Below, one piece after another: positions 42,395 to 46,008 of a DNA stretch of 64,000 nucleotides. Below the pieces are notes generated by a model. That model worked only from the letters and a program-made list of their open reading frames with translations. It searched no databases and had not been told where the DNA came from. The DNA is from Thioalkalivibrio sp. K90mix. GTDB lineage: Bacteria; Pseudomonadota; Gammaproteobacteria; Ectothiorhodospirales; Ectothiorhodospiraceae. Location: assembly GCF_000025545.1 (NCBI RefSeq), contig NC_013889.1, positions 1,109,501-1,173,500 on the forward strand, given 5' to 3'. The translations under genes and the position numbers were made by a program. How positions within the stretch are numbered: position 1 is the stretch's first letter; every line of letters starts with the position of its first letter.

Positions 42395-43915
42395 ATGAAC
42401 TTTCTCCACACGCTGGGCCATGCGGCGCGCAATCTGGCGCCCATCGTGATCGTGGTCGCGGTGTTCCAGGCGCTGGTGCTGCGCACGGTGCCGGAAGGGC
42501 TGCTGCCCATGGTGGTCGGGCTGACCATCGTGGTCTTTGGCGTGGCGCTGTTCCTGCAGGGCCTGGAGATGGGGATCTTCCCCATCGGGAAGAACCTTTC
42601 GAATGCCCTGGCCCGGCGCGGCTCGTTGCTGTTGCTGATGGCGTTCGGCTTCACCCTCGGCTTCGCCACGGTGATCGCGGAACCGGCCCTGATCGCGGTG
42701 GCCGAGCAGGCGGAGCTGATCAGCGAGGGGCGCATCAAGGGCCTCGTTCTGCGCCTGATCGTCGCGCTGTCGGTGGGTGCCGTGGTGGCGCTGGGCATCC
42801 TGCGCACCGTCATGGGACACCCGCTGCACTGGTACATTCTGACGGGCTACGTGCTGGTGGTGCTGGTCACCTTTTTTGCCCCCGAAGAGATCGTCGGGCT
42901 GGCCTACGACTCGGGCGGGGTGACCACCAATATCGTCACCGTGCCGCTGGTGGCGGCGCTGGGCCTGGGCCTGGCGGCCTCGATCAGCGGGCGAAACCCG
43001 CTGCGCGATGGCTTTGGCCTGGTGGCACTGGCGGTGATGGTGCCGATGATCACGGTGCAGCTGTACGGGATCATCGTGTTTGCCGGGGCGGAGGTCGATG
43101 CCCCGGGCAATGGCGAGACCGCGGCCATGGATGCGGACACGGATCTGCCGGGCGCGGGCGAGGAACACTGGCTGTCCGCGATGGGCATGGACCTCTTGCT
43201 GATGCTGCGCGATGTGGCACCGATCATCGCGGTGATCGTGGTGTTCCAGTACTTCGTGCTGCGCAAGCGCATCCCGTATCTGCCCCGGGTCATTTTCGGG
43301 TTCGTGCTGGTGGTGCTGGGCCTGTACGCCTTCGTGGTGGGGCTCAAGCTGGGCCTGTTCCCGATCGGCGAGAGCATGGCCGAGCAGCTGATCACGAACG
43401 AACTGTTCCTGTGGGTCTATCTGTTCGCGTTCTCCATCGGCTTCGCGACCACGATGGCGGAGCCGGCATTGATCGCGATTGGCCAGAAGGCCGAGGAAGC
43501 CGCGCGCGGTTCATTGCGCGGCAATGTAATCCGCATCCTGGTCGCGCTGGGCGTGGCCATCGGCATCACCATCGGTGTCCACCGCATCCTGGCCGGGGAT
43601 TCGATCCATCACTACATCATGGGTGGTTACCTGCTGGTGATCGTGCTGACGGTTCTCGCGCCCAAGCAGATCGTGGCGCTGGCCTTCGACCTGGGTGGGG
43701 TCACAACCTCCGAGGTGACCGTGCCCCTGGTGACGGCCCTCGGCATCGGCCTGGCTACCCACCTGGAAGACCGCAATGTCCTGATCGACGGCTTCGGCCT
43801 GATTGCCTTTGCCTCGATCTTCCCCATCGTCACCGTGATGGTCTACGCCATCGTGGTGGATATCTACGAGCGCTGGACCGGCAGGGGCCGCGCGCAACAG
43901 GAGGATTCGCCATGA
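42395..43915 (+). CDS. DUF1538 integral membrane protein (duplicated)
   Basis: The product is 506 aa with about a dozen helices. It consists of two DUF1538 halves. FPIGKNLSNAL...FGFTLGFATVIAEPALIAVAEQAE in the first half is repeated as FPIGESMAEQL...FSIGFATTMAEPALIAIGQKAE in the second. LAYDSGGVTTNIVTVPLV is echoed by LAFDLGGVTTSEVTVPLV. An acidic loop (about 235-255) joins them. The fold and repeats look like a transporter, but none is characterised to my knowledge. It is the first gene of a tightly spaced operon with a PII-like and a CBS protein. Confidence 0.85.
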   Translation: MNFLHTLGHAARNLAPIVIVVAVFQALVLRTVPEGLLPMVVGLTIVVFGVALFLQGLEMGIFPIGKNLSNALARRGSLLLLMAFGFTLGFATVIAEPALIAVAEQAELISEGRIKGLVLRLIVALSVGAVVALGILRTVMGHPLHWYILTGYVLVVLVTFFAPEEIVGLAYDSGGVTTNIVTVPLVAALGLGLAASISGRNPLRDGFGLVALAVMVPMITVQLYGIIVFAGAEVDAPGNGETAAMDADTDLPGAGEEHWLSAMGMDLLLMLRDVAPIIAVIVVFQYFVLRKRIPYLPRVIFGFVLVVLGLYAFVVGLKLGLFPIGESMAEQLITNELFLWVYLFAFSIGFATTMAEPALIAIGQKAEEAARGSLRGNVIRILVALGVAIGITIGVHRILAGDSIHHYIMGGYLLVIVLTVLAPKQIVALAFDLGGVTTSEVTVPLVTALGIGLATHLEDRNVLIDGFGLIAFASIFPIVTVMVYAIVVDIYERWTGRGRAQQEDSP

Positions 43916-44259
43916 GATTTTCGGCACTGATCGCCGTGCTTCCGGACGATCTGGAACAGCGCGCCATCGAAACTGCGAAGGTCGCGGGTGCCGGTGGTGT
44001 GACCATCATGGATGCCCGCGGCATCGGAGCGGAGGCGCGCAAGACGTTTCTGGGGATGACCTATGAGGGCAGCCAGTCCGTATTGATGTGGGTGCTGGAG
44101 AAGAAGGTCGCGCTGAACGTGCTCAAGGCCGTCAGCCAGGACCTGGAACTCGAGGGCGACCCGCGCGGCGTTGCATTCACCGTGGATATTGCCCACTTGG
44201 CCGGGATCGGACGCAAGCAGATCGAGCAGTTCCAGGAACACGTTAAGGAAGAAATCTGA
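43912..44259 (+). CDS. PII-like signalling protein
   Basis: The product is 115 aa with a PII-like ferredoxin fold: FSALIAVLPDDLEQRAIETAK, AGAGGVTIMDARGIG, then VALNVLKAVSQDLE and GVAFTVDIAHLAGI. The uridylylated T-loop Tyr region of GlnB/GlnK (RGAEY) is absent. It overlaps the DUF1538 stop by 4 bases (ATGA), with GGAGG upstream. It probably binds a nucleotide and contacts the membrane partner, as GlnK and SbtB do; this is inference. Confidence 0.78.
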   Translation: MRFSALIAVLPDDLEQRAIETAKVAGAGGVTIMDARGIGAEARKTFLGMTYEGSQSVLMWVLEKKVALNVLKAVSQDLELEGDPRGVAFTVDIAHLAGIGRKQIEQFQEHVKEEI

Positions 44260-44272
44260 GGAGGACTCGAGC

Positions 44273-44665
44273 ATGCTGGTAAGCGACATCCTGAAGTCCA
44301 ATGTGATTACCGTGTCGCCGCTCGCGCCCTTGCGCGAGGCGATGCAGTTGATGCGGCGGCACAACGTCAAGTCCCTGGTGGTGGACAAGCAGCACGAGCA
44401 CGACGCCTACGGCATCATCACCTACACGACAATCCTGAAGACCATCGTCGCGGAGGAGGGCGATATCGACCTCTCCAATGTCTATGATGTCTGTGCGAAG
44501 CCGGTGATCACCGTACCGGCCGAGATGGATGTGAAGTACGTGGCCCGGCTGATGGTCAATCAGGGCATCCGGCGCCTGGTCGTGCTGCGGGGCAATACCC
44601 TGGAAGGAATCGTCACCACCAGCGATATCGTGGGATCGATTCTCGAAATGGCGGATATGGAATGA
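44273..44665 (+). CDS. CBS-pair protein
   Basis: The product is 130 aa and consists only of two CBS domains (about 1-60 and 70-128: VSDILKSNVITVSPLAPLREAMQLM and VCAKPVITVPAEMDVKYVARLM). Such pairs bind adenine nucleotides. GGAGG lies 8 bases before the ATG, 13 bp after the PII-like stop. Confidence 0.9.
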   Translation: MLVSDILKSNVITVSPLAPLREAMQLMRRHNVKSLVVDKQHEHDAYGIITYTTILKTIVAEEGDIDLSNVYDVCAKPVITVPAEMDVKYVARLMVNQGIRRLVVLRGNTLEGIVTTSDIVGSILEMADME

Positions 44666-44733: not shown

Positions 44734-46008
44734 GTGGCCACTGTCGCGTACATCGAGGGGTTCGAGAAACTCCGGCTGCTGGATGCAGCCATCGACCAGT
44801 CGCGCCACTCCGTCCTGATCACGGACGCGGACCTCGACGACGGGCCGCGCATTGTCTACGTGAATGCTGGATTCGAGCAGATGACGGGATACGCGGCGGA
44901 CGAGGTGCTGGGCGAGACCCCGCGCCTGCTGCAGGGCCCGCGGACATCACGGGTAATCCTCGACCGCCTGCGCGCTGCACTCAGTGCAGGCGAGACCTTC
45001 GATGGCGAGGTCATCAACTATCGCAAGGATGGCAGCACGTACGTGGTGCGCTCGTATATCTCCCCCGTGTATGCCGAGGAGGCGCCCGAGCGGGTCACCC
45101 ACTATGTGTCCCTGCAACAGGACGTGACGGACGAACGGGCACGCGATGAGCAGCTAAGGCTGTTGTCGACGGCGGTTGAAGTGTCCGGGGACCCGGTGCT
45201 GATTACTGATCCTGAAGGCACGATCACCTACGTCAATGCCGCGTTCGAGGAGCTGATGGGCTACTCGCGCAGCGAGGTGCTGGGCGAGAATCCCCGGCGC
45301 TTCAAGTCGGGCCGCCAGGATGACGCGTTCTATCAAGGGATGTGGCGGGCACTGGAGCGCGGCGAGAGCTTCCGGGGCGAATTCCTGAATCGGCGCCGCG
45401 ATGGTTCCCTGATCCACCTGGAGCAGACCATCACCCCGGTGCTCGATGACCACGGCAAAATCTCGCATTACGTCGCCCTGGGCAAGGATGTGACCGACCG
45501 GCTGCGCATGGAAGACGAGATTCGCCGGGTGGCGCATACCGACTGGCTGACCGGCGTCGCGAATCGGCTAAGCCTCGGGAACACGCTGGAGGCGGAGATC
45601 GAGCGCAGCCAGCGCTATGGTCGTCCGCTGAGCCTGATCATGTTCGATCTGGATCACTTCAAGGCCGTAAATGATCAGTACGGGCACGAGGCGGGTGACG
45701 AGGTCCTCAAGGCGCTGGCGCAAACGGTGAGCGCGGAGCTGCGCGACGCGGACACCCTGGGTCGCTGGGGTGGCGAGGAGTTCATCATCGTGGTGCCCGA
45801 GACGCGACTGGTCGGGGCGACGGCCCTGGCCGAGAAACTGCGCCAGGCCGTCTCCACCATGAGCGTGCCCGGGGTGCCCGGTGTGACGGCGAGCTTCGGG
45901 GTCGCCGAACTCGCCTCCGGCGACAGCGCGAAGCTCCTCGCGCGGCGCGCGGACGAGGCCATGTACCAGGCGAAGCAGGCAGGGCGTGATCGGGTCGTGG
46001 CCCTGTAG
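44734..46008 (+). CDS. PAS-PAS-GGDEF diguanylate cyclase
   Basis: The product is 424 aa and soluble, with a GTG start after AAAGGAG. The first PAS (about 12-135) resembles a LOV domain (ETPRLLQGPRTSRVI) but has Pro where LOV has the flavin-adduct Cys of NCRFLQ. The second PAS spans about 140-260. The GGDEF domain has RWGGEEFIIV (active GGEEF) with an I-site RDAD five residues upstream. A bidirectional terminator follows the gene. Confidence 0.93.
   Translation: MATVAYIEGFEKLRLLDAAIDQSRHSVLITDADLDDGPRIVYVNAGFEQMTGYAADEVLGETPRLLQGPRTSRVILDRLRAALSAGETFDGEVINYRKDGSTYVVRSYISPVYAEEAPERVTHYVSLQQDVTDERARDEQLRLLSTAVEVSGDPVLITDPEGTITYVNAAFEELMGYSRSEVLGENPRRFKSGRQDDAFYQGMWRALERGESFRGEFLNRRRDGSLIHLEQTITPVLDDHGKISHYVALGKDVTDRLRMEDEIRRVAHTDWLTGVANRLSLGNTLEAEIERSQRYGRPLSLIMFDLDHFKAVNDQYGHEAGDEVLKALAQTVSAELRDADTLGRWGGEEFIIVVPETRLVGATALAEKLRQAVSTMSVPGVPGVTASFGVAELASGDSAKLLARRADEAMYQAKQAGRDRVVAL

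Follow-up and report, generated by a model that had tools for sequence, protein, structure and literature searches.

A UmpAB-like DUF1538 membrane protein of Thioalkalivibrio sp. K90mix as a candidate target of a dedicated PII-like protein

The DUF1538 locus and the family of its membrane protein

The window analyzed here is a stretch of 64,000 nucleotides of the Thioalkalivibrio sp. K90mix genome (NC_013889.1, positions 1,109,501 to 1,173,500), and window coordinates are counted from its first letter; numbers with L and G are our own handles for loci and genomes. Three adjoining genes are encoded as follows:

42395..43915, + strand: fused UmpA-UmpB-like DUF1538 membrane protein, 506 aa (ORF, Pfam, NCBIfam)
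43912..44259, + strand: PII-like regulatory protein, 115 aa (ORF, Pfam, profiles, own model)
44273..44665, + strand: CBS-pair protein, 130 aa (ORF, Pfam, motif)

The ATG of the PII-like gene lies inside the TGA stop of the DUF1538 gene (ATGA, a 4 bp overlap), and the CBS ORF begins 13 bp downstream of the PII-like stop, with GAGGAGG just 5' of its start. In Pfam searches, two DUF1538 domains are found in the membrane protein (PF07556, 444.9 bits, above the cut-off of 22.6 bits) and two CBS domains in the third protein (87.9 bits), and the PII-like protein matches P-II with 25.6 bits, barely above the cut-off of 25. The gene set of the preliminary description, with its ORFs, ATGA coupling, 13 bp gap and domains, is thus fully borne out. 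The DUF1538 gene is the single one in its genome (2.99 Mb, two contigs searched), and, among the matches listed, its closest named relatives come from Thioalkalivibrio strains and show 99% identity across the C-terminal half, so that a soda-lake origin is very probable.

A PAS-PAS-GGDEF gene (named by eye; window 44734-46008) lies 68 bp beyond the CBS gene. Among the 57 loci checked, it has close matches (E 2.9e-190 or better) only at L093-L096 and L053, and weaker ones (cut-off 1e-20) only at L117 and L039. As a genus-only neighbor, it was rejected as a part of the system.

Residues 3-227 of the membrane protein are UmpA-like (NCBIfam NF041627, 445.4 bits, below the equivalog cut-off of 490), and residues 270-490 are UmpB-like (NF041628, 409.3 bits, below the equivalog cut-off of 500). 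The UmpA cut-off is narrow: nothing scores above 490 bits in 299 genomes of the phylum or in 151 genomes of the Halomonas gemina family. Judged by these profiles, the window protein is a homolog of UmpA and UmpB, filed here without equivalog status, and because it falls below both equivalog cut-offs, ion specificity is transferred to it at the family level.

According to the parts of PMC5484666 that were available, UmpAB of Halomonas zhaodongensis is a two-subunit DUF1538 Na+(Li+,K+)/H+ antiporter that originated from a salt-tolerance screen, requires both subunits for its full effect and functions in a pH-dependent manner with an optimum at pH 9. The same parts describe a cloned 4.2-kb insert with four ORFs, of which umpB is the last, and constructs containing just umpA and umpB that were active in E. 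coli. The terms P-II, nitrogen regulatory, CBS and antiparallel have zero occurrences in the main text of PMC5484666. Furthermore, the available parts of two papers on cable bacteria name UmpAB homologs as salinity adaptations (PMC12093952, PMC10030654), and those of a machine-learning study place DUF1538 among the key features of pH adaptation (PMC13255231). The initial impression that the substrate and the system appear uncharacterized was therefore wrong as far as the membrane family is concerned, given the published antiport activity of UmpAB (PMC5484666, in part). The halves of the window protein and the two subunits of UmpAB are homologous and come in the same order, with NF041627 on the N-terminal and NF041628 on the C-terminal half, but the subunits are separate in H. 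zhaodongensis and form a single polypeptide in the window.

Co-occurrence and gene order of DUF1538, PII-like and CBS genes

In a sample of 274 genomes of the class, drawn evenly, DUF1538 is present in 90 and the PII-like subfamily in 89. The PII-like genes were identified with a profile (A1, E up to 1e-6) that was built from genes beside DUF1538 and so is biased towards agreement and can understate PII-only genomes; on this basis, both families are found in 87 genomes, DUF1538 alone in 3, PII-like alone in 2 and neither in 182 (Fisher p 3.7e-65, with shared ancestry ignored). The A1 profile omits three of 58 PII rows (L036, L077 and L092). The genome profile search gave no PII match in the DUF1538-containing genomes G144, G195 and G235. 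As for the genomes with PII and no DUF1538 match, the PII gene of G098 is located 120 bp from a contig end, with its upstream neighbor outside the contig, and G191 retains PII and CBS, preceded by no more of UmpB than roughly its final 40 residues and, further upstream, by 1.2 kb of other sequence; the locus of G191 may be broken or wrongly assembled.

The gene neighborhoods give a similar distribution in several samples. Sixty regions, taken from among the matches listed, were read in 59 of the 90 DUF1538-containing class genomes; 58 contain PII and 58 contain CBS. The partner genes at L067 are located about 1.4 kb further downstream of DUF1538, L085 is a lone umpA with umpB-PII-CBS near a contig end elsewhere in the same genome (L086), and at L091 the contig ends directly after umpB. 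Among 80 named loci, which are the best 80 of at least 586 relatives and come from Gammaproteobacteria, Campylobacterota and Arthrobacter/Citricoccus, PII is present in 78, as a separate gene in 71 and as a fused domain in 7, and CBS in 69. The fused proteins are single UmpA-UmpB-PII chains of 649-686 aa in seven Campylobacterota loci (L162, L164, L166, L168, L169, L170 and L171), none of which has a CBS match; the other four CBS-less loci, of which two also lack PII, are truncated by contig ends (L109, L111, L159 and L161). In the phylum, 115 of 299 genomes have a match; of 20 further regions chosen from these (8 from the same class, 12 from outside it), 18 contain PII and 14 CBS, and two of the 6 regions without CBS, L211 and L215, carry umpA-umpB with no PII-like gene although the contig continues. 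Finally, PII follows umpB in all 12 Halomonas gemina family regions whose UmpA is nearest to the profile of the experimentally tested UmpA, with CBS in 7; these 12 were picked from the 151 family genomes at UmpA scores of 401-449 bits, the H. zhaodongensis locus itself being outside the sample.

The adjacency goes beyond chance. Across 172 loci (L033-L172, L199-L218, L239-L250), the DUF1538 end lies within 700 bp of PII for 162 PII genes; in 147 of these the distance is at most 30 bp, overlaps included, and in 76 the overlap is exactly 4 bp. The PII-CBS spacing is at most 30 bp in 132 of the 148 cases measured, a count that favors short gaps because, among candidate CBS starts, a script chose the one closest to an overlap of 4 bp.

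From the presence counts over the class, named, phylum and Halomonas-family loci, PII emerges as a near-constant partner of DUF1538 and CBS as an optional one. Conservation of gene order, the check proposed in the preliminary description, is thus confirmed for the DUF1538-PII pairing, which recurs in Gammaproteobacteria, Campylobacterota and Arthrobacter/Citricoccus; co-occurrence of all three genes holds for PII and less constantly for CBS, which is absent from the fusions, from 6 of the 20 phylum regions and from 5 of the 12 Halomonas-family regions.

Several variant arrangements were observed. A divergent DUF1538 group (L183-L188, of which five have ORFs of 585-608 aa) adjoins divergent PII-like genes, with a second weak PII match at L184, L187 and L188; no CBS match is found in the stretches of L183-L188 that were read, although those of L184 and L185 extend only a short way beyond PII. 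At L190, the gene order is PII-CBS-DUF1538. A second PII-like match (57-70 bits) is located directly upstream of fused DUF1538 at L098:3807-4175, L101:3779-4147, L107:3813-4181 and L134:3733-4182. In Nitrincola (L119, L123), two sets lie in tandem, PII-umpA-umpB-PII-CBS and a further DUF1538-PII-CBS; in the ORF list of L119, the DUF1538 of the latter set is split into pieces.

Fusions, topology and properties of the PII-like and CBS-pair proteins

The most telling indication of an action of PII on the membrane protein comes from the seven fusions. One of them (L168) was modeled from an alignment of 81 rows, in which the PII-only rows are 17-33% identical to L168. The membrane part is modeled with a pLDDT of mostly over 90 and the PII core with 72-88, and the linker (513-530) and the T-loop region (566-580) fall below 50; with the linker at this level, the model gives no membrane-PII interface. 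In the model and the alignments, each half contains two helix pairs that are interrupted where the conserved AEP and GGVTT stretches lie, and these may line the ion path. The Foldseek and VIA lists for the L168 fusion are filled by the PII domain; MATE, EAAT3 and CLC were rejected as the DUF1538 fold at TM values of 0.11-0.17, too weak to name a fold.

In the 80 loci L033-L092 and L199-L218, umpA and umpB are separate in 67 and fused in 12, and in all 67 split pairs the second gene scores higher against the UmpB profile. The Lys+Arg counts of 57 fused proteins, with loop borders set by hand and no control family, differ between the N-terminal and C-terminal halves as follows: 1.18 vs 0.09 at the N-terminus, 0.44 vs 3.46 in H1-H2, 2.65 vs 0.72 in H2-H3, 0.12 vs 0.95 in H6-H7, 2.00 vs 1.02 in H8-H9 and 0.47 vs 3.30 in the C-terminal part; the H4-H5 and H5-H6 loops do not discriminate between the halves. 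The split pairs agree (n=67), with 0.54 vs 3.57 in H1-H2 and 0.10 vs 3.63 in the last 15 residues. The window protein likewise has opposite loop charges in its two halves. These counts suggest that UmpA is N-in/C-out and UmpB N-out/C-in, that is, that the two are oppositely oriented. By the loop charges and the positive-inside rule, the C-terminus of UmpB, to which PII is attached in the fusions, would be in the cytoplasm.

It could be argued that the PII-like and CBS proteins are only encoded in the same operon as the transporter and function elsewhere, as the CBS gene is missing from several lineages, umpAB lacks a PII gene at L211 and L215 and the L168 model contains no interface evidence. 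This explanation is at odds with the single-chain UmpA-UmpB-PII proteins of seven loci, with the 87/3/2/182 distribution in the 274 class genomes (ancestry ignored) and with the PII copies on both sides of DUF1538 at L098, L101, L107, L134, L119 and L123, and we regard it as very unlikely.

The window PII-like protein was modeled as a single chain from a 63-row alignment (pLDDT 82). The PII fold is recovered by Foldseek (E 1.5e-7 to GlnK1, probability 1.00) and by profile comparison (best E 4.1e-05); the best structural Z is 12.3, to SbtB, over 81 residues at 2.1 A rmsd, with SbtB and GlnK unseparated by the fold ranking (ties within 1 Z). The fold is also shared with TTHA0516 (PDB 2cz4), a putative PII-like signaling protein, at 25-28% identity in the Foldseek rows.

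The residues expected of a classical PII site are largely replaced. K90, R101, R103 and K58 are taken here to be the canonical phosphate-binding positions of PII, and PS00638 (C-terminal) and PS00496 (T-loop) to be the GlnB/GlnK signatures. K90 is replaced by I or V in 54 of 56 aligned members, R101 by G in 56/56, and K58 has no counterpart in any of the 56. The T-loop is short. Of the 158 members above 60 bits, 133 carry the motif [KR][TS]F[FLMVY]G (KTFLG in the window) and none carries either GlnB/GlnK signature; these motif counts exclude matches below 60 bits, which drops most of the seven fused PII domains. Both signatures are kept in the GlnB/GlnK proteins of the same genome, used as controls (L219, L220). 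Since the classical site residues are gone, the signal is probably other than the ATP/2-oxoglutarate pair, and sensing of these ligands in the usual way by the PII-like protein appears unlikely from its sequence. For the CBS pair, the ribose-phosphate motif is G-h-x-S/T-x-x-D/N; it occurs once in the window protein, in the second repeat (GIVTTSD), and 126 of 141 relatives have one copy or more, 52 of them two. The notion of two nucleotide sensors is accordingly weakened for the PII-like protein, with K90, R101 and K58 lost, and the CBS protein appears to be the better candidate.

The loss of classical ligand residues, together with the seven loci in which PII is fused to the membrane part, would also be compatible with a PII-like protein that has lost sensing and is a permanent component of the antiporter, needed for its structure or assembly. 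However, umpA and umpB alone are active in E. coli (PMC5484666, in part), the T-loop motif is kept in 133/158 members, as expected of a working contact, and of the 78 named loci with PII, 71 encode it apart from the membrane protein. This alternative is unlikely, if slightly less so than the others considered here.

Two more PII-superfamily proteins are encoded in the same genome (L221:1483-1809, minus strand; L222:1486-1776), and by eye they resemble SbtB/CPII types. In addition, an orphan tandem pair of divergent PII-like genes of the same subfamily as the window protein is found in this genome (L179:4844-5532; C1:1944343-1945019) and in a congener (L182:4603-5368), with no DUF1538 match within the 10-11 kb read around them. 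The former adjoins a K+/H+ antiporter-like gene (L179:5748-7544, minus strand) and the latter a BCCT-type transporter gene (L182:3051-4595), both named by eye.

The proximity of solved SbtB and carboxysome-associated CPII folds to the PII-like protein raises the alternative that DUF1538 moves another substrate, such as the bicarbonate transported by SbtA under SbtB control, with Na+ coupling explaining the cation effects; the available descriptions of Thioalkalivibrio species as chemolithoautotrophs would fit this explanation. Against it, antiport by UmpAB is pH-dependent with Na+, Li+ and K+ (PMC5484666, in part). SbtB is not separated from GlnK in the fold ranking, where the two tie within 1 Z, and L221 and L222 of the same genome could, as a guess from sequence, serve carbon uptake. 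The gene set also occurs in Halomonas, Marinobacter and Arthrobacter, which are heterotrophs. A bicarbonate transporter is therefore quite improbable in our view, slightly more so than a structural PII subunit.

A possible PII-controlled antiporter

The reading that we consider probable is a monovalent cation/proton antiporter of the UmpAB kind under the control of a dedicated PII-like protein. UmpA and UmpB, fused in the window, would form an antiparallel two-fold transport unit for the exchange of Na+ (Li+, K+) against H+. The PII-like protein is presumed to be trimeric and would bind from the cytoplasmic side, at the C-terminus of UmpB. Its short, conserved KTF[FL]G T-loop would open or close the antiporter in the way that AmtB is gated by GlnK and SbtA by SbtB; docked, the trimer would keep the antiporter shut until a signal frees the transporter. 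The CBS-pair protein, dispensable in several lineages, probably adds an adenine-nucleotide or ionic-strength input. Direct contact and gating between PII and UmpAB are inferred here from gene context and the fusions.

The effect of PII on the antiporter is most likely inhibition. Inhibition is preferred over activation because umpA and umpB alone functioned in E. coli, which also points to a regulatory rather than an essential role of the PII-like protein, and because the PII-controlled transporters in the available table rows of PMC10710835 are blocked or inhibited by PII. The sodium-motive force of Thioalkalivibrio versutus has been reported to reach -270 mV (PMC8874543, in part), and an unrestrained antiporter that drained the proton/sodium gradient would be a real cost for this organism.

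In common with SbtA-SbtB and AmtB-GlnK, the proposed system combines a membrane transporter with a PII-fold partner, a pairing deduced here from gene context and natural fusions. In contrast to them, the window transporter belongs to a different family and is accompanied by an extra CBS-pair protein, and its PII-like protein, unlike SbtB and GlnK, has neither the classical nucleotide residues nor the T-loop signature. The suggestion that the transporter has a dedicated PII-like partner has held up: the pairing recurs across lineages and is fixed in a single chain in the seven fusions. The rows under PII in a 2023 review list AmtB, Amt1, NrtABCD, UrtABCDE and SbtA, with no antiporter among those rows (PMC10710835, in part). 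No PII-UmpAB link was found in the openly accessible literature searched, partly in the form of abstracts and passages; the antiporter family and the PII fold are already known, and it is their combination that is new within this literature. The single biochemical study of UmpAB antiport found there, on the Halomonas pair, used umpA and umpB alone, so natural regulation was probably missed.

Tentatively, and with somewhat less confidence than in PII control as such, we propose that the antiparallel UmpA/UmpB antiporter is an unrecognized PII target, gated from the cytoplasm by the PII-like protein with CBS as a second input, and that this PII-like protein, having no ATP/2-oxoglutarate site, responds to another signal (pH, an ion or an unknown nucleotide). 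If this is true, ion and pH homeostasis would join nitrogen and carbon uptake among the processes controlled by PII proteins, and pH and salt homeostasis would be tied to PII signaling in about one third of the class sampled.
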